DNA from: Williamsia sp.
GTDB lineage: Bacteria; Actinomycetota; Actinomycetes; Mycobacteriales; Mycobacteriaceae
Direction: 5' to 3'
Assembly: GCF_016462415.1 (NCBI RefSeq)
Contig: NZ_JAEMTF010000036.1
Location: 1-39,868 of the forward strand
DNA: 39,868 bases
In this document: positions 12-13,780 of the stretch, piece after piece
How positions within the stretch are numbered: position 1 is the stretch's first letter
How the letters are laid out: each line of letters starts with the position of its first letter
Notes under the pieces: generated by a model
Database searches by the model: none
Told to the model about the DNA's origin: nothing
What the model saw: the letters and a program-made list of their open reading frames with translations, nothing else
Made by a program: the position numbers and the translations under genes

Positions 12-84
12 GCGCGTATAGCTCAGTGGTTAGAGCTCTGGTCTTACACACCAGCTGGCGGGGGTTCGAATCCCTCTACGCGCA
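12..84 (+). tRNA. tRNA-Val (anticodon TAC), left attachment site
   Basis: The sequence folds as a complete cloverleaf. The acceptor stem GCGCGTA (12-18) pairs perfectly with TACGCGC (77-83), followed by discriminator A84. The D arm is at 21-36. The anticodon stem CTGGT/ACCAG (38-42, 50-54) has loop CTTACAC and anticodon TAC at 45-47. The T arm is at 60-76 with TTCGAAT in the loop. No CCA is encoded. The 3' half from position 38 is repeated with four mismatches at 13734-13780. This tRNA is therefore probably a chimera of a host 5' half and an element-supplied 3' half. It should still be functional. Confidence 0.95.
38..55. other. attL core (18-bp identity)
   Basis: CTGGTCTTACACACCAGC is the tRNA-Val anticodon stem-loop plus one base. 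It is identical to 13734-13751. The dyad CTGGT/ACCAG around the 7-nt loop fits core-type binding sites of a tyrosine recombinase flanking a 7-bp overlap. Beyond this block the two tRNA 3' halves differ at four positions, which places strand exchange at the anticodon loop. Confidence 0.8.
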
Positions 85-278
85 CAGTGTTAGTGCAGGT
101 CAGAGGCCTGCGGATCGTTCATTTGGTAAACGAGTTCGATGTCGGACCGCAGAGAGACCGCAGCACTTTGCTTCGAGTGTGTTCGATGTCTTCGACTTGG
201 GTAGGTAGTACTGGCTCTGAGCGCGCGCATGCGTGGCTAGATCCTGTGCGTTGCGGGGAGAGTGTGGGTGTGGGTAGG
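85..278. promoter_or_regulatory. Left end of element: attachment arm, no gene
   Basis: No convincing gene lies here. It holds two GACCGCA motifs, at 145-151 and 156-162, 11 bp apart. The same pair with the same spacing occurs near the right end at 13566-13572 and 13577-13583. They are candidate arm-type sites for the integrase or the AlpA/Xis-like protein. Confidence 0.5.
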
Positions 279-866
279 TCAGCTGGTGTGCGCTTGCTGT
301 GCCTGTGCTCTTGCTCGATGCCACTTGGTAGTAACAAGGGCATTGAGGCGTGTAAGTGAGATAGGTGCGCGGCCACCCTTGGCGCGTATGCGGTTGGCGT
401 GGTCTGCCTGCTGTCGTGTGATCAACCGTGGTGCAGGTGCGTATCTGAGAAGTTCGTAGCGTTCTGGGCCGGTGAGGATGTCGGATAGGCGGGTTTGTGG
501 GCGCTGTTGTGGTGCAAGCACTCTGCGCACCACAAGCGTCCAGGCGGCGTTTACGAGATCGAAGTCTGCGGCGGCGGGGTGCACACATACGAGAGCGGCA
601 TAGTCGGCTGACATCGTCGTGCCGAAAACCCATTCGTCGCGCAGCTCCGGTATCTGTTGTGTGAGTGCGGGGGTCCACTTGGTGGCGCGCTCTGGTGGGG
701 ACGCGTTTTCGGCTGCGGCCATGGCTTCGAGCTTGCTGGCGTATCGGGGTGCTCCGGTGGTGACCAGTGGGACCGAGTCGGGGGCTTCGAGGTCGTAGGT
801 CAGCTTCGATAGCGCGAAGGGGTGACCGCTGGTGTGCACCAGAGAAAACGAGAATTGGTCGGTCAT
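279..866 (-). CDS. Hypothetical protein, paralogue of the next gene
   Basis: This is a 195-residue protein of no family I recognise. Its start ATG (864-866) overlaps the TGA of the upstream gene (863-865) as ATGA, so the two are probably translationally coupled. Residues around 40-115 share a pattern with the upstream protein: a YASxLEA-like segment, an AE pair, then a hydrophobic stretch ending in VHP, then an alanine-rich helix with AW. The C-terminus is basic, with many R, Q and A residues and no membrane segment. It is the last gene before the left attachment site. A role in element maintenance or helper interaction is possible, but nothing in the sequence shows it. Confidence 0.65.
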   Translation of the reverse strand: MTDQFSFSLVHTSGHPFALSKLTYDLEAPDSVPLVTTGAPRYASKLEAMAAAENASPPERATKWTPALTQQIPELRDEWVFGTTMSADYAALVCVHPAAADFDLVNAAWTLVVRRVLAPQQRPQTRLSDILTGPERYELLRYAPAPRLITRQQADHANRIRAKGGRAPISLTRLNALVTTKWHRARAQAQQAHTS

Positions 867-1234
867 GCGGTTCGGCTTTCGTGAGTACTATTCCGTGCTT
901 GGGCGGCGCGGAGGGTAAGGCGAATCGCGCTGAGGTTGATGGCTTGGTTCGCGGCGGCGTGCCACGCGTCGAGGATCTCTGCGAGTGTGGCGCTCACCGG
1001 GTGCACGATGAGGATCTGTCGGCACCGGTTTTTCGGTGTGGTGACTCGCGCAGTGCGGTATCCCTCTGGGGGCGTGAACCCGCTATCCCACGTTAGCGGG
1101 TGCGCGCGCTCGGCTACGGCGCTTGCTGATTCGAGAGATGCATATGTGACGTCAGAGGTGTTGGCGCGCAACGGTGCTGCGGTGCGTCCGATCTTCAGCA
1201 CCGTGTAGGTGTAGCGCGGGTTCATGGTGTCCAT
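863..1234 (-). CDS. Hypothetical protein, paralogue of 279-866
   Basis: This is a 123-residue protein of unknown function and the first gene of a two-gene minus-strand unit. A GGAGG lies only 3 nt before the ATG at 1234, and an in-frame ATG at 1225 would have a spacing near 12. The start is therefore uncertain by three codons. It contains the TYASLESASAVAERA and ILIVHPVSA segments that match the downstream protein in order, suggesting tandem duplication and divergence. It is preceded by the iteron region, so its promoter must lie close to the putative replication origin. Confidence 0.65.
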   Translation of the reverse strand: MDTMNPRYTYTVLKIGRTAAPLRANTSDVTYASLESASAVAERAHPLTWDSGFTPPEGYRTARVTTPKNRCRQILIVHPVSATLAEILDAWHAAANQAINLSAIRLTLRAAQARNSTHESRTA

Positions 1235-1421
1235 TGTCCTCCGTGTGACGTCGTTTCACCAGCTGCGCGGGTGTGTCGTCGGCGCTGGTCTGTGGGCGCG
1301 TGCGTGCGCTTGCTGGTGTCGGTGACTGTGGTCGAGGTGGTCCTCCTCGTGCACGCGCACGCGAGGGGTGGGCGCGCGCGCAGTTGGCAAGCGCGCGCAT
1401 GGATCGGGGGTTTTGGCGGTC

Positions 1422-1538
1422 TGACACCGGTAGATGGTGCTCTGACACCGGCATGACACCGGCATGACACCGGTAAAACTTTCGCCATTTATGCCCTTTG
1501 AGCTGGACTTATCGGGGTCTGACACCGGCTGACACCGG
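1422..1538 (+). repeat. Iteron group 1, TGACACCGG x6
   Basis: There are six exact copies of TGACACCGG in direct orientation, starting at 1422, 1443, 1454, 1465, 1520 and 1530. Three are in perfect 11-bp register with spacer CA. They are likely binding sites for the element's primase-helicase. Confidence 0.85.
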
Positions 1539-1623
1539 AAAAACGTCAAACCACCACCTACTACGTATGTGTGTGTGGTGCGTGTGTAGAGAATCAGAAA
1601 GTTACAGCCTCAATAGTGTTTTG

Positions 1624-1762
1624 CTGGTGTCTACTGGTGTCAGAGGTACTTGTAACCCTCTGACCTGGTAACTACGCCAGATTCCTGACACCGGTACGTG
1701 GAGTTTGTTGCTGGTGTCAGCCAGTGTCACGCTGGTGTCATTCTCAAAAACCGTGACACCAA
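1624..1762. repeat. Iteron group 2, mostly inverted
   Basis: Inverted copies of the CTGGTGTCA type start at 1624 (last base T), 1634, 1711, 1721 (CCAGTGTCA) and 1732. Forward copies are at 1686 (TGACACCGG) and 1754 (TGACACCAA). An 11-mer CTCTGACCTGG at 1658-1668 recurs at 6153-6163. Confidence 0.8.
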
Positions 1763-1772
1763 GTGATTTTGG

Positions 1773-4496
1773 CTAGCTACCGAGTCGGATTCCGGAATAT
1801 GCGCGCCATCGTGTGGTTCCACTGCGGCGGTCGACGCGTTTGATGGTTGGGTTGACGGCGTTGAGCGACTTACCGAAGATCGCGCCGTCTTGGGGGTGGT
1901 CGACTTCTTGGTCGGCGCACCACTGTGTGTAGGCCTGATGGAGTTCAACGGTGTTGACCTCCGCGCCCTCGGCGACGGTGCAGCAATCGTCGATGAACTC
2001 TTTGATGGGTGATCCGATGACGGCGAGCATGTTCTTGGCTGAGAGCGACGATGCGGGTTCGGTGATGGTGCCGGTAGCTGCGACGCGGTCGTATCCCTGC
2101 AGGCTCCAGGAGAGGATCTGGGGCAGTTCTTCGAGTAGTCGGTCGGTGAGTCCGATGTCCTCGTGTCCGATGAAGCTGGTGGCCATGGTGATGATGATGA
2201 ATCGGCTGGCGAGCGCACCGGAGTTGTCGACGAGTTTGAGTAGCTCGTTGGCCATGATCATGAACCGTGTGGGGAAACGTCCGGTCCAGCTGGTCTTGTT
2301 TTTGCGGTCGACGGTGCGGACGTCTTCGCCTGAGATGGCTTTGAGGTTTTCGATGATGTCGATGGCGCTCGCGGATCGGCTGAGGTGGGCGTCGGCGACG
2401 ATGGCGAGTTGTTTTCCGATGAGGCCTTCGAGTCCGAAGTTCATCCCGACGTGTTTCAGTGATGGCCCTGCGACGTTGGCGTTTCCGATGAGTTCGGTGA
2501 GGATGCGTCCGACGGTGCCTTTGCCGGATCGGGGTGGGCCTTGGATGAGCATCATCTTTTGGATGTCGGTGCGTCCGGAGAGGACGTAGCCGAACCATTC
2601 TTGAAGTGTTGCGATGGCTTCGGGGTCGTCGGGCCAGACGGATTCGAGGAACCGTAGCCATTCGGTGGGTGAGGTGTTGCTGGTGTCGTACTCGAAGTTC
2701 AACGAGTTGAGGTTGAAGTAGGCGGGGGTGTGTGGGTGCAGGGTGCGTGTGGGCAAGTGCAGCAATCCGCTGCGCAGTGCCAGTAGTTCTTCTGCTGGAT
2801 AGCCCGCTGGTGCGCCTGTGGGCCAGCTGGGGGGTTGTACGGCGCTGTCGAGGAGGACGATGCCGCGTAGGGCGTCGATGACGTTGGTGACCTTGTTGCG
2901 GTTGGGGTTCCATGCCTTGGTGGGCTTGCCTGGTTCTTCGAGGTATCGAGCGTGTTCGAATGCGGCGTAGATGGTTTGCCGTAGCTGGTGTTCGTCGATG
3001 CCGTTCCAGTAGCCGTCTCGCCACCGGAGCCATCGGTCGTTCCAGAATCGGAGGGTGGTGTGTCCGTCGGTGGTGAAGTGCGTTGCGGTGAGGTGGCGTG
3101 CGGAGTCCATCGTTACGTGTGGTGACGGAACGATGAGTGGTGTGGTGTCTTCAGTGAATCCGGGTGGTCGTGGGATTGCGTGTTTGATGCCGTACCAAGA
3201 TTCGGCTTGTGCCGCGACGTGGAACTTGTATCCCTCGGGGTCTACGTTCTGGTGTGCTCGGACGCGTCCGAGTGCCCATTCTGCGATGCCTTGGAACTCG
3301 GTTTCGGCGGCGTCTTCGTCGGCGTGGTTACCGGGCCGGCTCGTGTCTGTGCGGATGTCGACGAAGGCTTGTTGCATCGCTGTGAGTGCGTCGACTCCGG
3401 TGCAGTAATCGTGTGCGGCCAGCGCCAGAACGTTGACGGTGGCGTTGAGGGCTGCGGGGTGGAGTGCTAGTCCGACTGTGTACACCTGTGCGCGCAGGAA
3501 CTCGGTTTGTCCGTTGACGACGTCGGGGTGGTTGGCCGTGGTGGTGGTGGCGCAAAACTCGTCGAGGTCGTGCATGTCTGCTGCGGAGCTGGTGATGGTG
3601 TGGCCGTTGAACGTGGTTGCGCTGTGGCGGCTCTGGCACCATTCGGCCACCTCGGGCGGCATGACTTCAATGCAGCCGGTGCGTTGCCATTGGTATCGGC
3701 GTCCGAGGTTGGCTTTGGTGTGTGGGGTGGGTGCGCTGATTGCGATGGAGTTCCCGGTGCGAATTTCTCCGGGTGAACCTTTGCCTGGTGTCGCCGTGAT
3801 GCCGCCACTGGCGAAGTGATAGCCGGTGGGCTTGCGATAGACGTAGTGCCCGCGCTTGGAGTCGTTGGCACTGGTCGATTGGTAACGGCTGCAGGTGTCG
3901 AGGTACGGCCAGATGTGGGCGGGTACCGAGTCCGAATCGTCGATGTCGACGACGACGTGGTCGGGGCCGACGACGTAGCCGATTCCCATCGTTGACCATG
4001 GCACTGCGCGGTAGAGGCCTCGGCGTCTTCCGTCGGGATCGGTGGTGCCGGTTTCGCAGAACCACGCGTCGAGTGTTTCGGGGTTTGCGGATGCCTTCTC
4101 GTGCCAGTTCTTCCCTATGAGCGATCCGGGGTTTTTCTGTGCGTTCACACCGGGGCGGTTGGGTGTGGCTACCGAGGTTGTGGGTACGAGTCGAAAGCCT
4201 TCTGAGGCGAGGATGGAGGCTGTGGTGCGCATGCTCGGGTCGTCACGTAGGAGCGCCGGTGGGTAGTGCGCGGCAATCTCGCTGGGTGCAGCTACCGACG
4301 GTGTTGGTGGCGGGTTGTCGATCGGGTCCGGGACACCAAGATCGATCTCCAGTTCGGCGGGATCGAAATCGATGTCGTCCTCGGGTACCACCGGCTCGGG
4401 TGCGCTCGGGGATGAGCCGTCGCGTAGAAAGTCGAGGTTGCCTGTTCGTGGTGGCTCGGGTGTGTGGTTGGTGTCTGGCACTTGATCAATCTCCAT
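1773..4496 (-). CDS. Primase-polymerase / SF3 helicase (P4/D5-type Rep)
   Basis: This is a replication initiator of about 907 residues when started at ATG 4496. An ATG at 4577 would add 27 residues, but it has no Shine-Dalgarno and sits against a hairpin. Residues 1-90 are acidic and proline-rich linker. An archaeo-eukaryotic primase-polymerase domain follows, with VVVDIDDSD (181-189), RGHYVYRKP (215-223) and GEIRTGNSI (243-251). The C-terminal half is a phage/plasmid-type SF3 helicase: Walker A GPPRSGKG (653-660), AIVADAH (698-704), a MIMANE motif near 746 and an arginine finger in ASRFIII. It should recognise the iterons immediately 3' of its own gene and unwind and prime there. Control through its 136-nt leader is likely (see the antisense RNA). 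Confidence 0.93.
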   Translation of the reverse strand: MEIDQVPDTNHTPEPPRTGNLDFLRDGSSPSAPEPVVPEDDIDFDPAELEIDLGVPDPIDNPPPTPSVAAPSEIAAHYPPALLRDDPSMRTTASILASEGFRLVPTTSVATPNRPGVNAQKNPGSLIGKNWHEKASANPETLDAWFCETGTTDPDGRRRGLYRAVPWSTMGIGYVVGPDHVVVDIDDSDSVPAHIWPYLDTCSRYQSTSANDSKRGHYVYRKPTGYHFASGGITATPGKGSPGEIRTGNSIAISAPTPHTKANLGRRYQWQRTGCIEVMPPEVAEWCQSRHSATTFNGHTITSSAADMHDLDEFCATTTTANHPDVVNGQTEFLRAQVYTVGLALHPAALNATVNVLALAAHDYCTGVDALTAMQQAFVDIRTDTSRPGNHADEDAAETEFQGIAEWALGRVRAHQNVDPEGYKFHVAAQAESWYGIKHAIPRPPGFTEDTTPLIVPSPHVTMDSARHLTATHFTTDGHTTLRFWNDRWLRWRDGYWNGIDEHQLRQTIYAAFEHARYLEEPGKPTKAWNPNRNKVTNVIDALRGIVLLDSAVQPPSWPTGAPAGYPAEELLALRSGLLHLPTRTLHPHTPAYFNLNSLNFEYDTSNTSPTEWLRFLESVWPDDPEAIATLQEWFGYVLSGRTDIQKMMLIQGPPRSGKGTVGRILTELIGNANVAGPSLKHVGMNFGLEGLIGKQLAIVADAHLSRSASAIDIIENLKAISGEDVRTVDRKNKTSWTGRFPTRFMIMANELLKLVDNSGALASRFIIITMATSFIGHEDIGLTDRLLEELPQILSWSLQGYDRVAATGTITEPASSLSAKNMLAVIGSPIKEFIDDCCTVAEGAEVNTVELHQAYTQWCADQEVDHPQDGAIFGKSLNAVNPTIKRVDRRSGTTRWRAYSGIRLGS

Positions 4497-4514
4497 GCGT
4501 AGGTTTGGGTTTCG

Positions 4515-4543
4515 TTGCCGAGATCCTCGTGACCACCTACACT
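4515..4543 (+). promoter_or_regulatory. Predicted promoter antisense to the rep leader
   Basis: TTGCCG (4515-4520), a 17-bp spacer and TACACT (4538-4543) fit the actinobacterial sigma-70 pattern TTGNNN-17-TANNNT. It points rightward, against rep, toward the terminator at 4588-4628. The expected start is near 4550. Confidence 0.55.
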
Positions 4544-4549
4544 GGAAGG

Positions 4550-4628
4550 CGGTGTTCTTGTGAGCGGGACCTCGCATTTACCGGTGAAGCGCCGTCGATC
4601 CTTGTTGGTGGGATCGGCGGCGCTTTTT
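4550..4628 (+). ncRNA. Predicted antisense (counter-transcribed) RNA of rep
   Basis: A transcript of about 79 nt is predicted between the promoter at 4515-4543 and the intrinsic terminator ending in T5 at 4628. It would be fully complementary to the rep mRNA leader, in the only sizeable gap (136 nt) of this minus-strand operon. The terminator loop TTGTTGGTG contains UUGG, which fits the YUNR kissing-loop motif of plasmid antisense RNAs. Known parallels are ctRNAs of theta and rolling-circle plasmids and the CI RNA of satellite P4. The existence of this RNA is inferred from sequence alone. Confidence 0.5.
4588..4628 (+). terminator. Strong intrinsic terminator
   Basis: A 14-bp stem, AGCGCCGTCGATCC (4588-4601) with GGATCGGCGGCGCT (4611-4624), has one T-G wobble and a 9-nt loop. 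It runs into TTTTT on the plus strand only. No plus-strand gene precedes it, so it most likely ends the antisense RNA. Read on the minus strand it would be a stable leader hairpin before rep. Confidence 0.75.
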
Positions 4629-4632
4629 CATG

Positions 4633-5181
4633 TCATGTGGCCTCCGGCGACGAACGGATGGCGTTTCCTCGGTCGCGGGTTTGTCGGCGGAACTGTTCCC
4701 ATGCCTCTGGTGTGGCGAATTCTGCGGCTAGTCGGGCGATGAGCCCGGGTACGATGCAGCAGATTCCACGTGCGAGATCCGGGTGGTTGTAGACGTCGCG
4801 GCGCTCGGCGTCTATGCCGGTGGTGAGTGTGCGGGCCTCGCTCGCGGTGAGGGTGCGCGTCGTCAATCCAGTGGTGATCCATGCGTGGGTGGCGGCTTGG
4901 CGGGCGATAAAGTCTCCGACGCGTGGGTCGTGAGTGTCGTCGGCGATGAAGTCGCGGAGTCTGTCGAGAACTCGCTTGGGGTGCCCGACGTGGGTGCGGA
5001 GTGTGCTGATGTCGCGGTTCATGTCGCGGATGCATCGGTCTGCGATCTGTGCGGTGAGGGCTAGGTCGTCTGCCACTGAGGTCGGGCACTCGCCGGAGTG
5101 GTGCGTCGGTTCACCGTTGCTGATGATGGCTGTGTCGAAAAGCCTTTGGACCCATTGATCGAGTACGGGTTCGGTTTCCAT
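4633..5181 (-). CDS. Hypothetical protein upstream of rep
   Basis: This is a 182-residue, mostly helical, soluble protein. An AGGAG lies 8-9 nt before ATG 5181. I recognise no domain. The central part is rich in R, T, D and A, there is a single CC pair near residue 141, and no signal or membrane segment. It precedes the replication gene in the same orientation, separated by the hairpin leader, so it is likely co-transcribed with rep. Replication accessory or regulatory roles are possible but unsupported. Confidence 0.6.
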   Translation of the reverse strand: METEPVLDQWVQRLFDTAIISNGEPTHHSGECPTSVADDLALTAQIADRCIRDMNRDISTLRTHVGHPKRVLDRLRDFIADDTHDPRVGDFIARQAATHAWITTGLTTRTLTASEARTLTTGIDAERRDVYNHPDLARGICCIVPGLIARLAAEFATPEAWEQFRRQTRDRGNAIRSSPEAT

Positions 5182-5286
5182 GTGGTCGTGCTCCTAGGTG
5201 GCGTCGGACGGGGACCTCGCTTTCTTTGGATGTCATGGGTGTGCACGATGTGTGCGGTCGTGCTGGTGCTGTGCTTGGTGGTTACG

Positions 5287-5550
5287 TCATGCGGCGACGC
5301 TGCGAATGCTCTCGTCGCGGACCTTTGCTCCTGCTGCGATCTCGATGAGTAGCGAGCGCTCGGCGCGGGTGAATTCCGTTGTTGCGACGCGTTTTGCGAG
5401 ATTGTTGACCGCTGCGAGTGCTGTTAGGCGTTTGCGGAGTTCAATCGACCGGGGCGCGTCGTATCCATAGGTTCGGCATGACCGGGCGTGGGTGCCTTGG
5501 ACGCTTCGCAGCTGCGCCTCTAGATCGGTTTGTGGTCGGGGTGTTGGCAT
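5287..5550 (-). CDS. Small hypothetical protein
   Basis: This is an 87-residue, basic, helical protein that starts at ATG 5550. It contains a central RSIELRKRLTALAAVNNLAK helix and an ERSLLIEIAAGA segment. It is the first gene of the minus-strand rep unit, about 105 bp before the 182-residue gene. I see no convincing gene in the 105-bp gap. The function is unknown. A small DNA-binding or accessory protein is plausible from charge and size only. Confidence 0.5.
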   Translation of the reverse strand: MPTPRPQTDLEAQLRSVQGTHARSCRTYGYDAPRSIELRKRLTALAAVNNLAKRVATTEFTRAERSLLIEIAAGAKVRDESIRSVAA

Positions 5551-5795: not shown

Positions 5796-6071
5796 CTACT
5801 TCGTGGTGGTGACGACGTTGCTTTCGTCGTAGGCCCGTTGTACGAAGTCTCGGACGTCACCGAGCTTGTATCGGACCACCCGACCGAGGACGAACGACGT
5901 TGGTCCCCCGCGTCGGACTTCGCGGAATTTGCGCAGGCTGGACACTGTGTAGCCGGTTAGCTGCGCGCAGACGTCTACAGACACGATGGCGCTGTCGGGT
6001 GTGGATTCGGTGATCTCGCTGGCGTCATCGATGACGGGTCCGAGGCCGATGGTTCGTAGTGGTGTTGTCAT
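5796..6071 (-). CDS. AlpA/Xis-type helix-turn-helix protein
   Basis: This is a 91-residue protein when started at ATG 6071, which has AAAGGA about 10 nt upstream. Longer in-frame starts lack this. Residues 33-80 are a MerR-like winged HTH of the HTH_17/AlpA type: DVCAQLTGYTVSSLRKF, then a GPTSF loop, then LGRVVRYKLGDVRDFV. Proteins of this family act as excisionases or as activators of integrase genes in P4-like and PICI elements. It is divergent from the integrase, with 256 bp between. The GACCGCA-type motifs upstream of int and at both element ends are good candidates for its binding sites. Confidence 0.85.
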   Translation of the reverse strand: MTTPLRTIGLGPVIDDASEITESTPDSAIVSVDVCAQLTGYTVSSLRKFREVRRGGPTSFVLGRVVRYKLGDVRDFVQRAYDESNVVTTTK

Positions 6072-6327
6072 GCTTGCTGTTCCTTTGTGGTGGTGGTCTG
6101 ACACCGCCGAAGTTAGGCCCGCGCCCGGTCGTTCTGCAAGTGTGAAATAAAACTCTGACCTGGAGTTATGCAACTATTTGACACCAAAAATGTTCTCCAC
6201 CAGCGTATTTAGTCCTAGTTGCAAATTTAGTGACGCCGGTTTTGGGTTCGGACCGCACTAGAACCAGCGGTCCAGATATGTGATAATCAAGTAAGACAAC
6301 GAATTTCGAAAGTACGATGGAGTCACG
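6072..6327. promoter_or_regulatory. Divergent xis/int control region
   Basis: Visible signals are rep-type iterons TGACACCGC (6099-6107), TGACACCAA (6179-6187) and TGACGCCGG (6231-6239). There is also CTCTGACCTGG (6153-6163), identical to the origin copy at 1658-1668. A perfect inverted repeat GGACCGC-10-GCGGTCC (6250-6256, 6267-6273) matches the motif at the attachment arms. A TGATAAT -10-like element is at 6281-6287, and CGAATTTCGA is at 6300-6309. The region therefore appears to integrate signals from several element proteins. Confidence 0.6.
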
Positions 6328-7632
6328 ATGACAGTTCAAAACGGCGGTGAGCGACCTACGGTGAAGCGTGGCGTTCGTTCGGGTGTGGTTGATCGGTGGC
6401 ACTCGCGCAAGGATCTCGACGGCGGTGAGAAGTGCTGCGGTACGACGAAGGCTCCCACGTCGCGCCACAAAAAGGGTCTGCGTTGGCAGGCACGTTTCGT
6501 CGATGCCGATGGTCGTGACGTTGGCAAGGGCTTCGAGCGGAAGCACGACGCCAAGATCTGGCTAGACGAACAGATGGCCTCTGTGACTCGGCGCGATTAC
6601 GTGCACTCGGATCGGTCGTCGATGACGGTGGCAGAGATGGGCGAAAAGTGGGTGGCATCGTCGTCGTCGCTGAAGCCGTCCACTCGCGCGGGGTATCTCA
6701 ATCGGTGGTCAACTCACGTAGAACCGTATTGGGGTTCGATGCGGTTGTCTGATGTCGAGCACGGGGACATCGTGACGTGGGTGAGCGGGCTAGCGAACGC
6801 TGATGGCTCACCGATGTCGGTGTCGTCGAAGCACGCGTGCTGGGGTGTATTGAACAAGGTTTTGGCAATGGCGCTGGCGGACCGTCGGTTGTCGGTAAAC
6901 CCTGCGGCTGGTGTGAAGTTGCCGAAGAAGGGCTCGTCGTCGCATGACTTGACTGTGCTGGACGCTCCACAACTACTTGCGCTAGCTCGGGCTGCGACTG
7001 GTGAAAGCGAAACCGGTTCGGAGGCTGAGACCGTGATCCTGACTCTGGGGATGGTGGGTCTGCGGTTCGGCGAGATGACGGGGTTGCGGGTCGGGGACGT
7101 AGATCTCTCGCGCAAGACGATGCGGATTCAGCGCAATGTGGTCGAGGTGGGAGGCAACCTCGTAATTGGTTCGCCGAAGTCGGGTGAGGAGCGGACTGTG
7201 AGCTATCCGCCGGTGTTGGCAGACCGGCTGGTGGCGCTGTGCCGCGATCGTGGTGCTGAGGAATACGTGTTTCAGCTAGGCGGTCGTGATGCCAAGGGGC
7301 CATCGCGTCCGCTGCGGCGCACGAACTGGAATCGGCGGGTGTTTTACCCCGCTGCTATTGCTGCGGGGCATGTGGATTCTGAGGGCAAGGCGACGATTTC
7401 ACCGCACGATCTTCGTCACTGCGCAGCGGCCACGATGGTGCGCGCTGGTGCGAGTGTTCATGTGGTGCAACGTCAATTAGGACACTCAAAGCCGTCGATC
7501 ACGCTGGACGTGTACAGCAACCTTTTCGCGGAGGACCTAGGTGCGGCTGCGGCGAGTCTGAGCAAGGTCTACGAGGACCTCGCACGTGCAGACGATGACG
7601 ACGACGGTGTCGTCGTTCAGATGGCGCGCTGA
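6328..7632 (+). CDS. int: Tyrosine recombinase integrase
   Basis: This is a 434-residue site-specific recombinase that should insert the element into the tRNA-Val gene. ATG 6328 has GGAG seven nt upstream. The order is: an extended, cysteine-containing N-terminus (1-45); an arm-binding AP2-like domain (about 46-92); a SAM-like core-binding domain (about 98-190); and the catalytic domain. All catalytic residues are visible: R246 in GLRFGE, K284, H360 and R363 in HDLRH, H386 in QLGHS and Y396. It is of usual length for actinobacterial phage and plasmid integrases. It sits mid-element, about 6.3 kb from either end, followed closely by small plus-strand genes. Confidence 0.96.
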   Translation: MTVQNGGERPTVKRGVRSGVVDRWHSRKDLDGGEKCCGTTKAPTSRHKKGLRWQARFVDADGRDVGKGFERKHDAKIWLDEQMASVTRRDYVHSDRSSMTVAEMGEKWVASSSSLKPSTRAGYLNRWSTHVEPYWGSMRLSDVEHGDIVTWVSGLANADGSPMSVSSKHACWGVLNKVLAMALADRRLSVNPAAGVKLPKKGSSSHDLTVLDAPQLLALARAATGESETGSEAETVILTLGMVGLRFGEMTGLRVGDVDLSRKTMRIQRNVVEVGGNLVIGSPKSGEERTVSYPPVLADRLVALCRDRGAEEYVFQLGGRDAKGPSRPLRRTNWNRRVFYPAAIAAGHVDSEGKATISPHDLRHCAAATMVRAGASVHVVQRQLGHSKPSITLDVYSNLFAEDLGAAAASLSKVYEDLARADDDDDGVVVQMAR

Positions 7633-7655: not shown

Positions 7656-7916
7656 ATGGGTGATCTAGCACCGGGTGATGCTGCGGCTGCACGCCGACGG
7701 CTGAAGGCGGAGCGAGACGACGGTCGGTGGATTCTGCCGGTTGGTCCCAACCTGTCCTATGCCGACGGGAGTCTGGGCGTCTTGCTGGCGAAGAAGGGCT
7801 ACAGGGGCGGCTTCGTCTGGACGGCTGATCCGTTGCGGTCGGGTCGGCGGATGGTTGAGCTTCTAGACGCTGATGACGTGTCGGCGTGGACGGTCGGTGA
7901 TCACGATGAGTCGTAG
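7656..7916 (+). CDS. Small hypothetical protein downstream of int
   Basis: This 86-residue protein has GGAG 9 nt before ATG 7656, only 23 bp after the integrase stop, so it is probably co-transcribed with it. It has an N-terminal charged helix, then a GRWILPVGPNLSYADG segment and a short C-terminal domain with many D residues. I recognise no family. The end overlaps the next gene by 11 bp. Confidence 0.6.
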   Translation: MGDLAPGDAAAARRRLKAERDDGRWILPVGPNLSYADGSLGVLLAKKGYRGGFVWTADPLRSGRRMVELLDADDVSAWTVGDHDES

Positions 7917-8373
7917 ACGTCCGGTGACAACAATGCGCAATCTCGCGGCGGCAAAAGCGGTCGAAGCGCGGGTCGACGACGTGAATGAGACGCTCGGGCG
8001 TCTCGGGATCACTGAGGAGATCTTGGTGGTGTCGCGGCCATGCGCCGACGGCTCGGTTCGGGTGGCGATGAGTCACACCATGAGCGAGATCAGCGCTCTA
8101 GGTGTCATCGCGCGGTCACTGGTCGAGGGTCGGGCCGGTCTGTGGGATGACGACGGTGACGGTCTGACGGCGTCGGTTGGTCGTGTGGGTACTTCGACGT
8201 CGTCGTGGCGCGAACGCGCCGAGGCGCTGAGAACTCAGAGTGTGGCGCGGCGATTGGTGCGTCGTCATGAGGTGTGGCGGGAAGCATCGGAGCACTTCGG
8301 GTCACCGGGTCAGTGGCTGGAGCTGAAGCGCAGTCAGCGCGCGCGGCGTCGGTTTGAACGAGGGTACGACTAG
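7906..8373 (+). CDS. Hypothetical protein
   Basis: This 155-residue protein starts at ATG 7906, inside the end of the previous gene. Upstream in-frame starts would overlap it further and look non-coding. The N-terminal helix is charged, the middle contains LVVSRPCADGSVRVAMSH, and the C-terminal third is strongly basic (R-rich, ending in RSQRARRRFERG), suggesting nucleic-acid or acidic-protein contact. No known domain is visible. It is a member of the compact int-downstream gene set. Confidence 0.6.
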   Translation: MSRRRPVTTMRNLAAAKAVEARVDDVNETLGRLGITEEILVVSRPCADGSVRVAMSHTMSEISALGVIARSLVEGRAGLWDDDGDGLTASVGRVGTSTSSWRERAEALRTQSVARRLVRRHEVWREASEHFGSPGQWLELKRSQRARRRFERGYD

Positions 8374-8375
8374 CG

Positions 8376-8612
8376 GTGACCTCTGCGTCGTGGTCACGTC
8401 AGAGCTGGGGTGTCTGGTGGCTTCGCTTCGCTGACCGTGAGGCTGCGATGCATGCGCTGCGTTGGGCGCGGGATCGTGAGATGCCGACGAAGGTCTTCGA
8501 CTCGCCTCGCGGTGTGGTCGTGGCTCTGACCCACCACGTGGATGACGTGCCGCAGATCGAGGCGGCGTGGGGTCGGTCGAAGCGCTATCGCAGGGTCTCT
8601 GACGTGCGATAA
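8376..8612 (+). CDS. Small hypothetical protein (GTG start)
   Basis: This 78-residue protein starts with GTG 2 bp after the preceding stop, consistent with translational coupling. The sequence is rich in W and R, with a pattern (WWLRFADREAAMHALRWAR, then a VVVALTHHVDDV segment) that suggests a small alpha-beta fold. I do not recognise the family. Confidence 0.55.
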   Translation: MTSASWSRQSWGVWWLRFADREAAMHALRWARDREMPTKVFDSPRGVVVALTHHVDDVPQIEAAWGRSKRYRRVSDVR

Positions 8613-8629
8613 TAGAGGTGGAGGCACTC

Positions 8630-8899
8630 ATGACTGACGATCTCGAATTGATTCGGCGTCTCGTTGATGGCGAGTGGTCGGCGGCGGATCTCGTGGCGCA
8701 TGTAGCCGAGAACCCACGTCCGAAGTTGTCACGTCCTCGGTTGCGCACCTACGAAGAGATCGAGGGCGATCCGGATCGGATGCCGCTGTCTGAGAGCGTC
8801 TCTGCGCTGTACTCGGCGCGGTACGCAGGCAAGGTGACCGACGAAGACTTCTGGACGGCCTACGGGGCTCTGTGGCCTGGTGTCGGGGCTACCTCGTAG
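8630..8899 (+). CDS. Small hypothetical protein
   Basis: This 89-residue acidic protein starts at ATG 8630 with GAGGTGGAGG just upstream. An in-frame GTG at 8618 falls inside that ribosome site and is less likely. The fold looks helical (DLELIRRLVDGEWSAADLVA, then SVSALYSARYAGKVTDEDFW). It is the last gene of the int-proximal plus-strand run, and its end overlaps the convergent gene 8889-9113 by 11 bp. Confidence 0.6.
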   Translation: MTDDLELIRRLVDGEWSAADLVAHVAENPRPKLSRPRLRTYEEIEGDPDRMPLSESVSALYSARYAGKVTDEDFWTAYGALWPGVGATS

Positions 8900-9113
8900 G
8901 TGACCGGTTGTCGTCCTCTGCCAGCTTCTTACGGACGTTGGCAAGCGCAATGCCGATGGATGTATTCGGTAAGACCACTGCGAATCGATGCATCTCTTCG
9001 ATGAATCGCACCAGCTCACGTTCGCCGTCGGGTGCGTCCCGTAGGCGGTCGTGCCACTTGATGTATTCGTCGAGGTTGCGCCACTGGTCGTCTTCGAGGA
9101 TCGGCTCTGCCAT
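8889..9113 (-). CDS. Small hypothetical protein, convergent
   Basis: This 74-residue protein starts at ATG 9113. A longer in-frame extension to 9479 runs into the next gene's leader and looks non-coding. The sequence is helical and charged (DDQWRNLDEYIKWHDRL, then ELVRFIEEMHRFAVVLPN). No strong ribosome site is seen. The gene is convergent with 8630-8899 and divergent from the cargo gene at 9306. The function is unknown. Confidence 0.45.
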   Translation of the reverse strand: MAEPILEDDQWRNLDEYIKWHDRLRDAPDGERELVRFIEEMHRFAVVLPNTSIGIALANVRKKLAEDDNRSPTR

Positions 9114-9182
9114 ACACCGGAGCGTAGATGTCGGCGCTCCGTCGTAGCGTCGCTTCGGGCCGGAGGGAAGCCGGTTCCTAGG

Positions 9183-9213
9183 GACCCCCGTCGGCGTGAT
9201 GCCGGTGGGGGTC
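9183..9213. other. Stable hairpin in the cargo leader
   Basis: A 13-bp stem is formed by GACCCCCGTCGGC and GCCGGTGGGGGTC (two G-T wobbles) with loop GTGAT. There is no T-run on either side. It lies about 90 bp upstream of the cargo gene at 9306, in a divergent intergenic region. It could be a leader structure, a U-less terminator or a protein-binding palindrome. Confidence 0.5.
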
Positions 9214-9305
9214 GCTCCGGCTTTACCGGCTCCGCGCTGATCAACCGATCGTGTGAAACGTTCGAACGTGGAACCGGATGCAAGACAGCGAGCAATACTT
9301 ACACC

Positions 9306-10187
9306 ATGTCCCCCGATGCGACTGAATCCACAGTAGAGACCATTCCAGCGAATCCGGCTACGGCGCTGTACAACATCCTCAGCACTATCGCGATCAGCAA
9401 CCCTACGGCGTCGATAACCGATGGGTGGCAAGCTGCGCTCGGCGTGCCAGCTGAGAGCGTTGATTTCACCCGGTTGCATGCTGAGGTAGTGGGTCTTTTC
9501 TCCTCAGTTTGCACCTGCCTGCGCGTCAATTCTGAGTTATGGACCGACTACAGCGAGTATACGAATCAGTGGTATCGCGGAGTCATTTTCCCGGGCGACT
9601 GGGGTCACCCCGCTTCTGAGCTCTTTCCCAATATCGAGGTATTGAAGCAGCTTCGCGGACTTGGCAACAACTTAAAGTATGCGGGTATCGCCGGAGGACA
9701 ATGGAATGCTGATGTCAAAATAAAACTCAACAAACTAATAGAAATGTGGAACGGCGTACTTGGAAAAGATTCTCTACCATCGGATGTGGCCCGGGATATT
9801 CATCGCCGTTTAGATGAACTTATATGGCTAGCAAGCCAGATTAGACACCTCGGTATCGAACCTGTCGCTATGGCAGGTAACCAATTGCTGATGGCCGGTG
9901 ATCGAGCACTTGTTCGTGAAAAGCTGCCTAAGAACATCAAGAAGACAATTATCAAAGCAATGGCTGCGAGTTTGATTTTTGTTGGTGCGGTCGACGAGGG
10001 AACGGATCACGTTGCTGGCATCCTTACAAACACAAACAAGATTATCGAGCAGGTCGAGGTTTTGAAGGATGAGCAAAGGCAATTGGAGAAAGGGCCACCA
10101 AAGCAGTTGGAGTCGGGGCGAGGCGCTCAGGACTCATCGGAGGCCAATGACGAAGGGCCGACGCCACCCACCGAGTCGTCACAGTAG
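9306..10187 (+). CDS. Cargo gene 1, hypothetical AT-richer protein
   Basis: This 293-residue protein starts at ATG 9306. The open frame extends back to 9051, but that part covers the hairpin and the opposite-strand gene and reads as non-coding. Base composition from about 9600 to 10100 is visibly AT-richer than the rest of the element, with AAA and ATA codons rare elsewhere in the window, suggesting recent acquisition. The protein is mainly helical, with a WYRGVIFPGDWGHPASELFP segment near 83-102, a lysine-rich stretch (KLPKNIKKTIIKA) near 204-216, and a polar C-terminal tail. I see no signal peptide and no clear membrane helix. The function is unknown. With the next gene it occupies a cargo position where satellites often carry defence genes. 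Confidence 0.65.
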   Translation: MSPDATESTVETIPANPATALYNILSTIAISNPTASITDGWQAALGVPAESVDFTRLHAEVVGLFSSVCTCLRVNSELWTDYSEYTNQWYRGVIFPGDWGHPASELFPNIEVLKQLRGLGNNLKYAGIAGGQWNADVKIKLNKLIEMWNGVLGKDSLPSDVARDIHRRLDELIWLASQIRHLGIEPVAMAGNQLLMAGDRALVREKLPKNIKKTIIKAMAASLIFVGAVDEGTDHVAGILTNTNKIIEQVEVLKDEQRQLEKGPPKQLESGRGAQDSSEANDEGPTPPTESSQ

Positions 10188-10332
10188 AGCCAGAGGCCGC
10201 CTTGCCCGGGCAGGCATCTGCAGCTATCAACGTACGGCTAGGGCAGACGTCTACTGAGGTGTACCCCGATTGACCGGGTGGTTGACGTCGAAGTCGAGTC
10301 TCATGTCGGTACTGGGGGAGATACTCGACCGC

Positions 10333-11034
10333 ATGACATCCACTGAGAACACAATCCAGGACCCGGATCGACTCCCCGACACGGCTGAACCAAACGGCCG
10401 ATGCCCTGTGTGTAGCTACCGTAGCGCTTTTAACGTTTTGGACGTCTTACCCCTAAGTCCAACCGTCAATCACGGGACTCCAAAATCGCAAGTAGCGCGC
10501 CTAGAATGCATGGGATGTGGCAACGGAATTGCGGTGTTCGAAATGTACCGCAATGATCTTTACTTGCAGAGCAAAATCCCCACTCGTTACCAAGCTGTAC
10601 ATTGGTGGCCGACGCCGAATACACAATTTTCATTGCCAGATGTAGTTCCAGTCGAGGTCCAGAATCCGTTTGATGAAGGATGCAGATGCGCTGCGGTTTC
10701 TGCCCCCAATGCGGCGGTCGCAATGTTTAGAAATGCGATTGCTGCAATTGTTCAAATTAAGGGTTCAGATGAAGCGAATAGTAAAAACACACTGTTTCTA
10801 ACTATTCAGCAGATGGGAACCGACGGAACGCTATTTAACGACTTCACTGAATGGGCGCATCATGTGCGATTGACCGGCAATGCCGGTGCGCACCAAGAAC
10901 AGTTTGAGGATGTTACTTCAGAACAAGCAAGCGACTTGCGTGAATTTACTCGCCAACTTATCGAATTTCTCTTCGTTCAACCAGCGCGCCGCAAAAACGC
11001 CATGCCAACCACGCGACGCGCGGTCGAATCTTAG
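10333..11034 (+). CDS. Cargo gene 2, DUF4145-like protein
   Basis: This protein has about 233 residues from ATG 10333 (GGGGGAG about 12 nt upstream). ATG 10303 in frame is an alternative start. The N-terminal part has two CxxC pairs (CPVC and CMGC) in a zinc-ribbon arrangement. A helical domain follows with the features of DUF4145: a VPVEV-type strand, a segment of paired alanines with an R before a long helix, a QMGTDGTLFNDFTEWAHHVR segment, and a GNAGAH motif before the last helices. DUF4145 proteins recur in phage, restriction and defence neighbourhoods, but their biochemical role is not settled. AT-richer like its neighbour. The stop TAG overlaps the TAA of the convergent gene within TTAG (11031-11034). 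Confidence 0.75.
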   Translation: MTSTENTIQDPDRLPDTAEPNGRCPVCSYRSAFNVLDVLPLSPTVNHGTPKSQVARLECMGCGNGIAVFEMYRNDLYLQSKIPTRYQAVHWWPTPNTQFSLPDVVPVEVQNPFDEGCRCAAVSAPNAAVAMFRNAIAAIVQIKGSDEANSKNTLFLTIQQMGTDGTLFNDFTEWAHHVRLTGNAGAHQEQFEDVTSEQASDLREFTRQLIEFLFVQPARRKNAMPTTRRAVES

Positions 11035-11726
11035 GTGGCCCGAACCACGCGCATGCGATCGAATTCGATTGCTGCGAAGCGTGAGGTTTCGACCTGTCGG
11101 CGGTTGATGTCGGTCTGCACGCTGGTCACGGTCTCGATGGGTGACAAGTGCACCACGACTCCGCTGGCGCTGTTGCGGTCGGTGACTGCGACGGCGTCTG
11201 GTGGGTAGCCGCTGGCGGTGGTAAACGGCACTGCGAGGTTGTTGAGTCCGATTCCCATGACGATGGCGGCTTCGAATCCCAAGTGCAGCAACGGATCTAT
11301 GTGCGGGTTGTCGGCGTAGGCGCGTTCGAGCACTTTGGCGACGGTGGCAAAGTAGGTTGCTCCACGGTCGACGGTGGGGATGCTGGGGTTGGTGAGGTAG
11401 AGGTCGTAGTCGTCGGTGACGTCGGTGCCGAACCACAACAGTTTCGACACCTGGTGTTCCACGGCGTTGCGCATGGCCGTGTCGACGATCTCGGCGAAGT
11501 CCTCGGGTGAGCATCGGGTGGGCGCTTTGGCGTAGCCGAGGATCGCGACGGGGAGGGTATCTTCACCGAACTCGACGTCGGGTCCTTCGACGAATGGCAC
11601 TGGTTCGCAGATGTCGGAGAGGCCTGTTTCGAACGCGCGATCGAAATATTCGATCGGGAGTTTGGTGCCGAATGTCCACTCTCCGGAGTGTTCGATCACG
11701 GTGACGCTGTCTAGGAAGTGGGCCAT
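11031..11726 (-). CDS. Possible HK97-like capsid protein
   Basis: This 231-residue protein is the last of a four-gene overlapping minus-strand operon. The order resembles the latter part of phage major head proteins: a middle helical region with an AMRNAVEHQVSKLLWFGTD segment, a long helix ending in HIDPLLHLGFEAA, then strands containing SGYPPDAVAVTDR, and a terminal FAAIEFDRMRVVRA segment of the kind that closes many actinophage capsid proteins. This is a pattern judgement, not a database match. It is shorter than usual (231 against about 280-400). No portal, protease or terminase lies nearby. Another phage structural or a non-phage element protein is possible. Confidence 0.4.
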   Translation of the reverse strand: MAHFLDSVTVIEHSGEWTFGTKLPIEYFDRAFETGLSDICEPVPFVEGPDVEFGEDTLPVAILGYAKAPTRCSPEDFAEIVDTAMRNAVEHQVSKLLWFGTDVTDDYDLYLTNPSIPTVDRGATYFATVAKVLERAYADNPHIDPLLHLGFEAAIVMGIGLNNLAVPFTTASGYPPDAVAVTDRNSASGVVVHLSPIETVTSVQTDINRRQVETSRFAAIEFDRMRVVRAT

Positions 11727-11914
11727 GTTTGTACCTCGTTAGATGTGTTGCGCTGGTTCGGGTTTGGGGTTGCGGATCGGTCTGCGCAGGATGCGTAGCG
11801 CGGGATGAGAATCTCTATGAGGTCCGCGAACAGGGAGTGTTCGGCATCCTTAGCCGGGTTGATGAGCACCAACTCTGTCCCGTCAGTTGACGCAGATCGA
11901 TCCGCAAGTCTCAT
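11711..11914 (-). CDS. Small hypothetical protein in the operon
   Basis: This 67-residue protein starts at ATG 11914, whose ATG overlaps the TGA of the upstream gene as ATGA. Its own end overlaps the start of the next gene by 16 bp. It contains one hydrophobic-acidic segment, HSLFADLIEILIPRYASC, and a polar tail. The tight overlaps on both sides are the main support for it being real. Confidence 0.55.
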   Translation of the reverse strand: MRLADRSASTDGTELVLINPAKDAEHSLFADLIEILIPRYASCADRSATPNPNQRNTSNEVQTWPTS

Positions 11915-12831
11915 GAGGCTTTGACCTCGGTGGGTGCCGGGGCTGGTCGCGCGGCTTCGGCTTGTTTCGCGGTGAGGGCGGCGGGTTCGGCTCCGGCTGT
12001 GATGGCTCCGGCGATCCACAGTGCTGCGCTCTCGGGTGTGTGCGCTGTGTATCGCGATACGGGTGCGCGTTCGATATGTCGCCATCCGTAGCAAGCTTCG
12101 GGGAAGTTCTCGTCGGCGGCGCGGGCGATGAATCCGTGGTCACGGAGTTCGTGGGCGACGAGTGCGACGTGCTCCAGCTCGGCTGTCAGCTGTTGGGCGC
12201 GCAGGATCTCGTAGTGCACGCGTACTTTCTGCGGCATCGATGCGTGGGCGCGGATGTTCTCTGTGAGGTCTTCGTCAGCGTCAAAGTTCACGCGCTGAAA
12301 GTCCTGCGCGGCGTAGATGCCTTCCCACCCGGCTTCAGAGAGGACGGTGGCGAGTGGCTTCAGCTCGCTCATGACGCGCTCCACCCACGGCTGCAGGAGT
12401 CCGGTGACGATGTCGTCTCCGAGTGTGCGGAGTCGCTGGGCGGCTTCTCGGCTGCGGAAGAATCGGATCTGGTTTTCGAGTCGGCGAAGTTCTTTGGCTT
12501 GGTTGGGGGTGTTACCGGCCAAGAGTTTCGCGGTCGCTTCGTAGCGCTGTTCGTCGGTGACTGCGGCATTGTCTTTACCTCTGGTAAGGACAGCTAGTGC
12601 CTCGGTGAGTTTGAGTCCTCCGTGGGTGCGGATGTGGTCGACGTCGGCGAGTTGGTCGGCTTCTTCTGATGCTGTGTATCCGATGTCAGCGCGTGCGCCC
12701 ATCACGGACACAGAGGGGTTCACGGCGGCGGTTTCGATGAGCTTGTCCAACAGCTCTAGCGTGCGCTGTGCGGTCTCGTAGGGCACCAGCGTCGAGTGCG
12801 CGGGGTTGGTTCTGGTGGTGAACGGTTTCAC
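11911..12831 (-). CDS. Hypothetical helical protein, possible scaffold
   Basis: This 306-residue protein starts with GTG 12831, sharing one base with the upstream TAG (TAGTG overlap). It is strongly helical and charged, with a heptad-like segment (QAKELRRLENQIRFFRSREA, about 115-134) and a C-terminal tail rich in A, P and E. If the last gene of the operon is a capsid protein, this could be a scaffold or head-size-determining protein, as satellites often encode. That is inference from shape and position only. I recognise no domain. Confidence 0.6.
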   Translation of the reverse strand: MKPFTTRTNPAHSTLVPYETAQRTLELLDKLIETAAVNPSVSVMGARADIGYTASEEADQLADVDHIRTHGGLKLTEALAVLTRGKDNAAVTDEQRYEATAKLLAGNTPNQAKELRRLENQIRFFRSREAAQRLRTLGDDIVTGLLQPWVERVMSELKPLATVLSEAGWEGIYAAQDFQRVNFDADEDLTENIRAHASMPQKVRVHYEILRAQQLTAELEHVALVAHELRDHGFIARAADENFPEACYGWRHIERAPVSRYTAHTPESAALWIAGAITAGAEPAALTAKQAEAARPAPAPTEVKAS

Positions 12832-13322
12832 TATGTGTCCTTTGTTGTGGTCCGCGCGCGCAGTGCTCGGCGGAATGCTCCAGCGCCGGTGCCGGGGCGT
12901 GGTGGTCGATCGGCGACTACCTGCATGACTTTGGCTAGTTCGCCGTCTGCGGAGCGCTGGTGGGCTGGCACGAGGCGTGTCAGCGCGACGATTGCGTCGT
13001 CACGGATGCGGTCGATGGCTTTTGGGTCGAGGGGTAGGCCTTGGGCGGATTGGTCGCGGCGGTGAATGTTGTACGCACGGCGCGCGCGAGAGATGACGTG
13101 GCCGTAGACGTGGATGGGTTTTGCTTTGAGCGCGTCCCATGTGGCGTCTGGCAGGCCTTCGGCGGTCACGGCGCGGGCGGCGAGGGCGATGAGTGGGTGG
13201 TTGGGGTCGAGGCGCTCTGAGTCGGGGATGTCTGCGAACGGTGATCGGGGTGGGCGTGCTTCCGCGAACGGGTTCCAGGCGGCGGTGATCGCCGATGCTG
13301 TCGGGTGGTTTTGCCTGGTCAT
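12831..13322 (-). CDS. Hypothetical protein, first of right operon
   Basis: This 163-residue protein is taken from ATG 13322. A TTG at 13373 would add 17 residues. The N-terminus is proline-rich (NPFAEARPPRSPFAD), followed by helical segments with many A, R and D residues and a basic tail (FRRALRARTTTKD). No known domain. It leads the four-gene overlapping operon that ends at 11031, so the set is probably made from one promoter in the region before 13374. Confidence 0.6.
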   Translation of the reverse strand: MTRQNHPTASAITAAWNPFAEARPPRSPFADIPDSERLDPNHPLIALAARAVTAEGLPDATWDALKAKPIHVYGHVISRARRAYNIHRRDQSAQGLPLDPKAIDRIRDDAIVALTRLVPAHQRSADGELAKVMQVVADRPPRPGTGAGAFRRALRARTTTKDT

Positions 13323-13733
13323 GTGGCTAATCTCTACGCGCGCGTGCGTGGCTGTCAAGTTTCGACATACCAAATACGTTGGGACAGTTGATGACTAGGA
13401 TTTGAGCAAATTATTAGCGCAGTTCAGAGGCGGTAGTTAGGATGGCTTTTGACTTGAGTTGGTGCAACTGTTACTGCGGGTTCCGACCGGACGCGGGCAG
13501 TCGGTTACTGATCTCGCGCAGATCTGGACGTCTGACCGGGTCATATACGAGGACGAGATCGCAGAGACCGCAATGGGACCGCAGAAGGGTCTACTTCGGG
13601 GTTCTGTGTGTGTTCGGTCGAGGTTCGTCCAAATCGAAGACTGGCGTACTATATGACCAGCTCAAAGCTGTTTCTGATTCGCTAAAAGTTGTTCGGACTC
13701 CGGTTGGAGCGGGTTGAGCTTTTCGTGGGACCG
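13323..13733. promoter_or_regulatory. Right end of element: attachment arm, no convincing gene
   Basis: It should contain the promoter of the minus-strand operon. GACCGCA occurs at 13566-13572 and 13577-13583, 11 bp apart, as at the left end. Open frames here (such as 13442-13717) have no ribosome site and unlikely composition. Confidence 0.5.
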
Positions 13734-13780
13734 CTGGTCTTACACACCAGCGGTCGGGGGTTCAAATCCCTCTGCGCGCA
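13734..13780 (+). other. attR: tRNA-Val 3' half remnant
   Basis: The core CTGGTCTTACACACCAGC (13734-13751) is identical to attL, followed by a T arm (TTCAAAT loop) and TGCGCGCA. It differs from 38-84 at four positions. No D arm or 5' acceptor strand precedes it, so it is not a tRNA gene. The core sits in a perfect 10-bp inverted repeat, GACCGCTGGT (13729-13738) and ACCAGCGGTC (13746-13755), around a 7-nt centre, as expected for recombinase core sites. Confidence 0.85.

Follow-up and report, generated by a model that had tools for sequence, protein, structure and literature searches.

The stretch of DNA studied here (the window, 39,868 nucleotides of contig NZ_JAEMTF010000036.1 from Williamsia sp.) contains a genetic element of approximately 13.7 kb, which we consider, with a probability of roughly 0.6, to be an integrated phage satellite whose pentamer-type protein takes the vertex positions in the head of a helper phage. 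As deduced from the sequence, the element is integrated in a tRNA-Val gene and carries its own integrase, a primase-helicase, an iteron array, and a conserved three-gene operon that includes the gene for the pentamer-type protein (Table 1). From this repertoire, we infer a helper, induction, packaging, and capsid resizing. The best reading of the data is that of a satellite lineage that replaces the helper's vertex protein or competes with it, which would be similar in function to Ccm of the Staphylococcus aureus pathogenicity island (SaPI) SaPIbov5, but would have its source in a dedicated pentamer protein.

The 231-aa pentamer-type protein matched 13 phage records at 37–42% identity, with alignments covering 80% of the protein or more, and these records belong exclusively to Gordonia phages (GMA2, Sixama, Phendrix, GodonK, Mareelih, Forza, BlueNGold, and Boopy, several of them as duplicate records). 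In all five phages inspected, the homologue is encoded directly after the main head gene. This preceding gene is annotated as the major capsid hexamer protein in GodonK, Sixama, Forza, and Phendrix, and as a "putative structural protein" in GMA2, where it corresponds to the major head protein family phrog_777. The genomes of GMA2, GodonK, and Sixama are 103–123 kb long. The family of the 231-aa protein itself is phrog_779, whose function is unassigned in PHROGs. The GMA2 homologue leads further to gp36 of Microbacterium phage Ariadne (27.5% identity, E 3e-5), which also directly follows a hexamer gene. Relatives of Ariadne gp36 comprise 83 records; among the 40 listed, six are annotated as major capsid pentamer protein, including that of phage Crisis, located directly after its hexamer gene, and most others as hypothetical. 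Mycobacteriophages have also been annotated with hexamer and pentamer proteins, as outlined in PMC10893344. Judging from these records, the pentamer label is the annotators' conclusion from distant relatives and gene position.

The AlphaFold model of the 231-aa protein is weak, but nevertheless matches HK97-fold shells coherently, including the SaPIbov5 shell entry 7rwz and encapsulins; the pentamer profile detected no relative among the PDB sequences. Together, sequence and model point to an HK97-fold homologue of a phage capsid protein residing on a satellite, as is the case for Ccm. Hexamer, portal, protease, terminase, and tail genes, as expected for a complete prophage, were not found in the element by means of Pfam, PHROGs, and a comparison with 53 proteins encoded in the structural gene regions of phages GMA2, Ariadne, and Sixama (including just a part of the GMA2 terminase). 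Among these 53 proteins, matches to the element at E ≤ 0.01 were confined to the pentamers of GMA2 and Sixama. Likewise, the window open reading frames (ORFs) submitted to Pfam and to PHROGs (20 each, both sets including a few doubtful overlapping ORFs) yielded no match to families of terminases, portals, proteases, or major capsid proteins. An initial annotation of the window, made from the letters alone, had already noted the lack of terminase, portal, and protease, in agreement with this result. It had also suspected a capsid-type operon: a capsid-type protein is indeed present, but only as a lone pentamer-type protein with two partners, which changes the mechanism proposed. A lone HK97-fold protein might also close a small shell of its own, like an encapsulin, and hold protein or nucleic acid. 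Encapsulins are among the structural matches of the model, and a protein restricted to pentamers could close a shell of triangulation number T=1; however, 13.7 kb of DNA would not fit into such a shell, and the relatives of the protein by sequence occur together with a hexamer gene, both in phages and in prophage-like loci. This explanation is considered very unlikely.

As a control, phrog_779 was followed in genomes of the class and was found in 6 out of 394. Five of the six loci featured a hexamer-type gene within a few hundred bases, with matches to a protease in five and to a portal in four of these five, and accordingly look like ordinary prophages. The sixth locus was a weak match (E 9e-4) without hexamer, protease, or portal. 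In a tree of 12 sequences, the three satellite pentamers formed one clade (100/99), which fell into one cluster with GMA2, GodonK, Sixama, and Forza, the inner order of this cluster being unresolved (six of the nine inner branches of the tree are open). Scans of viral contigs yielded one contig with GodonK-like length and protein and four loci encoding Ariadne gp36 relatives, and otherwise no relative. Of two scans of genome contigs, one yielded nothing and the other the G821 contig only. On one viral contig (L031, 6001-7164), a pentamer homologue is extended at its C terminus by a collagen-like, Gly-rich region, as if a fiber were placed on the vertex.

The 306-aa partner gene of the operon revealed related elements in other genomes. 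Its profile was found in 5 out of 251 genomes of the family, namely the window's own, G048 (two copies), G821, G828, and G873. Nothing beyond the window was detected in 249 genomes of the order and 236 genomes of the class, indicating that the group is rare in these samples. A search with the single 306-aa sequence had recovered 3 out of 151 genomes (its own, G048, and a weak match with stops in G054), and pentamer searches with the lone protein in 151 relatives and with the profile in 397 genomes of the order had recovered the window only. The relatives surfaced only via the 306-aa gene, and G821, G828, and G873 were probably outside the earlier samples. The elements measure 14,245 bp in G821 (36-bp exact direct repeats, tRNA-Arg), 13,283 bp in G828 (38-bp exact direct repeats, tRNA-Arg), and 11,137 bp in G873 (94-bp exact direct repeats, tRNA-Ala). 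Complete prophages or conjugative plasmids, surroundings that were regarded as being at odds with a satellite when the element was first described, were not encountered around these three homologues, which lie in attachment site (att)-bounded elements of 11–14 kb with no other tested structural genes.

G821 and G828 represent two genera other than that of the window, and in both of them the pentamer gene adjoins the same two partner genes. Identity to the window was 51% (G821) and 37% (G828) for the pentamer, and 48% and 34%, respectively, for the 306-aa protein. For the window integrase, by comparison, blastp at E 0.01 retrieved nothing from G821 or G828. According to these comparisons, the pentamer, 306-aa, and 163-aa genes are kept, whereas the replication and integration genes are much more diverged or exchanged. 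Of the 53 phage proteins, the pentamers of GMA2 and Sixama alone gave strong full-length matches in the elements of the window, G821, and G828; weak matches were obtained in G821 for Ariadne gp36 (to the pentamer, E 0.002) and for GMA2 orf23 (51 aa). For the C12 element of G048, the bounds used in this comparison were set by hand. A small ORF in G828 (L061, approximately 6634-6831) shares a stretch of 63–66 aa with GMA2 orf11 and its Sixama relative, which are proteins of the head-gene region. The presence of a phage head gene and an integrase would also be compatible with a decayed prophage in which one head gene was kept by chance. This is highly improbable, given that this lone gene recurs in three genera, each time next to the same two genes, on repeat-bounded elements of 13.3–14.2 kb, that the frames are open, and that the coding signal of the window pentamer gene is strong (GC content at third codon positions 0.78).

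Under the satellite reading, infection by a phage with a GMA2/Sixama-like head, consisting of a hexamer and a separate pentamer protein, would lead to excision and replication of the element. The satellite pentamer protein would then occupy the vertices of shells made from the helper hexamer protein, and this replacement would favor shells suited to the satellite, probably smaller ones, while cutting the helper yield. Portal, terminase, protease, and tail would be supplied by the helper. Since the likely helpers possess genomes of 103–123 kb and the pentamer-carrying satellites only 13.3–14.2 kb, packaging would require a much smaller shell or, alternatively, a multimer. The likeliest assistants would be the 306-aa and 163-aa proteins, acting as scaffold or size determinant and as packaging adaptor. 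The 306-aa protein is predicted to be all-helical with one helix of approximately 74 residues; this model would suit a scaffold, though nothing links the protein to one. No credible structural match was found for the model, the best hit of the profile against PDB sequences (E 0.086) was not credible, and neither partner protein matched a phage. In profile-profile comparisons of both families with 26 GMA2 proteins, none was credible (best probability 1.3%).

Several observations weigh against this reading. The name "pentamer" stems from distant relatives (the 27.5% between GMA2 and Ariadne), most of which are still hypothetical, and in phage Leaf, one gene lies between the hexamer gene and the matching gene. 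The AlphaFold model reached a predicted local distance difference test score of only 48.6. A small terminase was not recognizable by Pfam or PHROGs, cos/pac signals not having been searched for, and a GMA2-type major head gene was not found in the own host genome, so that a resident helper is not evident and the helper would come from outside. Furthermore, of the five genomes that carry the 306-aa gene, two (G048 and G873) had no pentamer match.

The pentamer homologue could also be purely anti-phage, serving as a decoy vertex protein that poisons the assembly of GMA2-type heads, while the element moves otherwise or rarely. In the absence of packaging genes, a solitary head protein could have this effect, and the gaps in its distribution just mentioned would be compatible with it. 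Cargo-adjacent slots are a usual place for defense genes, and the pentamer gene adjoins cargo that differs between the window and G828. However, it ends a conserved three-gene operon (13373-11031; 163 aa, 306 aa, pentamer-type last) on the minus strand, opposite to the cargo, and 51% identity is kept between elements with differing replication and integration genes. Moreover, interference and packaging are not mutually exclusive in known satellites. Overall, a function solely as decoy appears unlikely.

The boundaries of the element were deduced from the tRNA-Val gene, the 3' half of which is duplicated (33-85 and 13729-13781, 89% identical) with an identical 18-bp core inside the repeat, resulting in a core-to-core length of 13,696 bp. 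The right flank or the tRNA was matched in all eight genomes of the genus searched (the window's own included), and the insertion site was retrieved from six of the seven others (G002 was left out). Each of these six genomes harbors a single intact tRNA-Val whose 3' half corresponds to the right copy of the window and not to the left one, with small differences in G003 and G004. Hence, the right copy is chromosomal, the left 3' half was brought by the element, and the crossover took place within the 18-bp core. These comparisons indicate that the element was inserted by site-specific recombination into tRNA-Val, and the single unit at 44..13739 in this gene, as described in the initial annotation, is thereby confirmed. 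In G001 and G007 (L084 and L085), approximately 800 bp that are absent from the window beside attR lie between tRNA-Val and the next common flank, perhaps due to an older insertion or deletion there.

The integrase, correctly recognized from the start, is located mid-element, approximately 6 kb from the att site either way, and not at the end as is usual in phage-inducible chromosomal islands (PICIs); an integrase and a specific attachment site, which characterize PICIs, are nonetheless both present. In the G821 and G828 elements, unlike the window, it is terminal. The circular gene order is common to all three, the att site of the window being located between the 163-aa gene and the accessory ORFs. 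The previous assignment as a PICI-type satellite therefore holds with respect to the satellite (att-bounded, own replication, one head gene) but not with respect to the integrase position. The evidence falls short of placing the element in the PICI family proper, as the regulator has no profile match, the integrase is not terminal, and induction and packaging are predicted only.

The primase-polymerase/helicase and the iteron array 3' of its gene, both proposed earlier, were recovered as well. The window enzyme is 40% identical to that of G828 over 861 aa. Near-matches to the iteron CTGACACCGG number 13 in the 39.9-kb window, nine of them inside 1421-1720, and none of 100 shuffles reached 13. 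The array is presumed to be the replication origin. Positions 1541-1684 contain 53% AT compared to 40% in the element as a whole, and 3.6% of equally long segments reach this level. At the same place in G828, a different iteron (TGCACAGGC) forms two opposed sets around a 67-bp stretch with 72% AT, and no such array was present in the 1.3 kb examined in G821. An origin with two iteron sets flanking an AT-rich region is the layout outlined for Escherichia coli PICIs (PMC6092414). The succession of pri-rep and such an origin was thus found here, with an AT stretch that is modest in the window and clear in G828. G821 (L055, 13820-16440) encodes a separate primase and an AAA_25 ATPase instead of the fused protein; its primase had no blastp match to the window enzyme, yet both match phrog_1156, and the gene comparison indicates a swap of the replication module.

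Actinomycete integrative and conjugative elements (AICEs) share the primase-polymerase, the integrase, and the tRNA insertion site with the window element, which could accordingly be an AICE or mobilizable element moved by conjugation that captured a phage gene. Relatives of the helicase half were indeed found on 5 out of 72,556 plasmids, two of them typed as conjugative. However, neither an FtsK/TraSA-type translocase, as expected for an AICE, nor a relaxase family was matched among the submitted window ORFs (Pfam, NCBIfam), and the pentamer-type protein had no match in the plasmid collection. Movement by conjugation is therefore regarded as very unlikely.

Among known systems, SaPIbov5, a cos-type SaPI of the PICI family, provides the precedent. 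It also encodes a capsid protein homologue, and its shell entry is among the matches of the present model. Cryo-EM, as summarized in PMC8569155, located Ccm in pentamers and the helper protein in hexamers, with assembly being redirected. Ccm derives from a helper capsid protein that forms both hexamers and pentamers, whereas the protein described here, for which resizing is a prediction, derives from a separate pentamer-type protein of Gordonia phages. Gram-negative PICIs of the EcCICFT073 type, according to the same account of E. coli PICIs (PMC6092414), resemble the element in having an integrase, pri-rep genes, an origin whose AT-rich region lies between two iteron sets, and an AlpA-like gene, which in the window is assigned by position only. 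They differ in that the integrase is mid-element here, a packaging gene is not recognizable, and the partner genes are others. Capsid-forming PICIs encode their own major capsid, portal, protease, and terminase, which were not found here.

For Mycobacterium, the excerpted description in PMC10654092 defines candidate PICIs by a major capsid protein gene, some featuring terminase and scaffold genes. Together with the phiRv elements, they are integrated, carry a capsid gene, and are found at tRNA genes in several cases (PMC10654092); unlike them, the window element has no major (hexamer) capsid gene that could be found. MulchRoom and MiniFlayer of Streptomyces are also satellites in Actinomycetota, but represent the reverse of this element, as the outline of their study reports head and packaging genes and no recognizable primase (PMC10690885). 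Small actinobacterial prophage elements in general are supposed to be possible satellites in a survey, as far as its summary indicates (PMC10023795).

Single satellite proteins acting on helper capsids are represented by Rcm and TcaP. Rcm is helical and has been likened to a scaffold competitor; the 306-aa protein is also predicted to be helical, no sequence or fold link between the two having been found. ICP1, the helper of the PICI-like element (PLE) of Vibrio cholerae, is a large virulent phage. In SaPIpT1028, one protein, Rcm, redirects helper capsid assembly, according to the summary in PMC12409344, and PLE similarly remodels the helper capsid by means of TcaP (PMC10945586, in outline), which, in contrast to the protein described here, is an external scaffold and not a capsid protein homologue.

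A satellite with a dedicated pentamer protein was not recognized in the literature, as judged by titles and the openings of abstracts. Tentatively, and at slightly less than even odds, the elements may represent a distinct satellite lineage of this actinobacterial family, marked by a capsid-takeover operon in which a dedicated vertex protein captured from a large-headed phage is joined by the helical 306-aa and the 163-aa partners, and which switches a shell for 103–123 kb to one fitting approximately 14 kb and arose independently of SaPIbov5 Ccm. If true, this would be a second, independent route to owning the corners of a phage shell, via a protein that was already pentamer-specific. Control of shell size by a vertex protein would become testable with two or three proteins, and phages of the GMA2, Sixama, GodonK, and Forza types could be named as concrete candidates for the helper. 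Elements of this kind would probably also escape searches for satellites that rely on a major capsid or terminase gene.

Table 1. Features of the satellite-like element and its attachment sites (positions refer to the window; HMM, hidden Markov model).
Feature	Position	Strand	Evidence and remarks
tRNA-Val (TAC), hybrid gene rebuilt by the insertion (attL side)	12..85	+	ARAGORN; comparison with six same-genus genomes
attL core, 18 bp	38..55	+	identical to 13734-13751
Accessory ORF, 195 aa	279..866	-	blastp 34% and 32% over ~75 aa to G821 and G828; no HMM match
Accessory ORF, 123 aa	863..1234	-	relative in G821, blastp 35% over 106 aa
Iteron array (TGACACCGG type, two orientations), 3' of the primase-polymerase gene	1421..1740	.	
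Primase-polymerase/D5-type helicase, 934 aa	1773..4577	-	Pfam Prim-Pol 2e-8, D5_N 2.5e-7; NCBIfam TIGR01613 (P4-family primase) 1e-43
ORF, 182 aa	4633..5181	-	no convincing HMM match
ORF, 87 aa	5287..5550	-	relative in G821, same place, blastp 39% over 75 aa
AlpA/excisionase-like regulator, positional call	5796..6173	-	probable start ~6071 (91 aa); divergent from int
Tyrosine integrase	6328..7632	+	Pfam PF00589 (Phage_integrase) 1e-17; phrog_1 1e-53
Four small ORFs	7656..8899	+	some with weak same-slot relatives in G821, G828 or G048
AT-rich cargo gene	9051..10187	+	true start probably ~9315; same-slot gene in G821, 35% over 279 aa
AT-rich cargo gene, DUF4145	10270..11034	+	Pfam 4e-10; phrog_1305 1e-24
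Lone major capsid pentamer-type (vertex) protein, 231 aa, predicted HK97-like fold	11031..11726	-	
306-aa partner protein, predicted all-helical	11911..12831	-	
Partner protein, ~163 aa	12831..13373	-	probable start 13322; 41% to G821 (z 32), 33% to G828 (z 14)
attR core, then original 3' half of tRNA-Val	13734..13751	+	

The AlpA-like regulator proposed in the first description of the element fits by position, but the window protein has no Pfam match; its positional counterparts in G821 and G828 match HTH_17 and MerR_1. Relatedness of the window protein amounted to z 4.5 for the G828 counterpart and only 1.3 for that of G821. The AT-rich character of the cargo, likewise noted at the outset, is evident from a GC content of 52–55% at 9–11 kb compared to 65–73% in rows that are wholly chromosomal. 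The first cargo gene was not assigned to a family in HMM searches, and a defense library gave 0 matches for ten proteins. A part of the DUF4145 gene (10848-10990) is 69% identical at the DNA level over 143 bp to gene 1 of Gordonia phage Meyran. A 67-aa ORF between the 306-aa and pentamer genes was dropped, as no counterpart was seen by eye in that gap of G821 and G828.

Further candidate loci were not counted as related elements. The second 306-aa copy of G048 (C11) was accompanied by no primase-polymerase or pentamer match in an 18-kb stretch. Loci with primase-polymerase matches in G014, G044, G013, and G100 have the primase-polymerase in common with the window, and three of them the integrase; the G054 stretch with the weak 306-aa match has nothing in common with the window proteins, these five loci being compared with the window proteins only (tblastn, E 1e-3). 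Finally, a 16.3-kb plasmid of Streptomyces virginiae (NZ_CP108186.1, L092, 1-16292) encodes a terminase-family protein, a primase-polymerase, a P4-type primase, and a tyrosine integrase, and looks like an episomal satellite or a prophage-like element.

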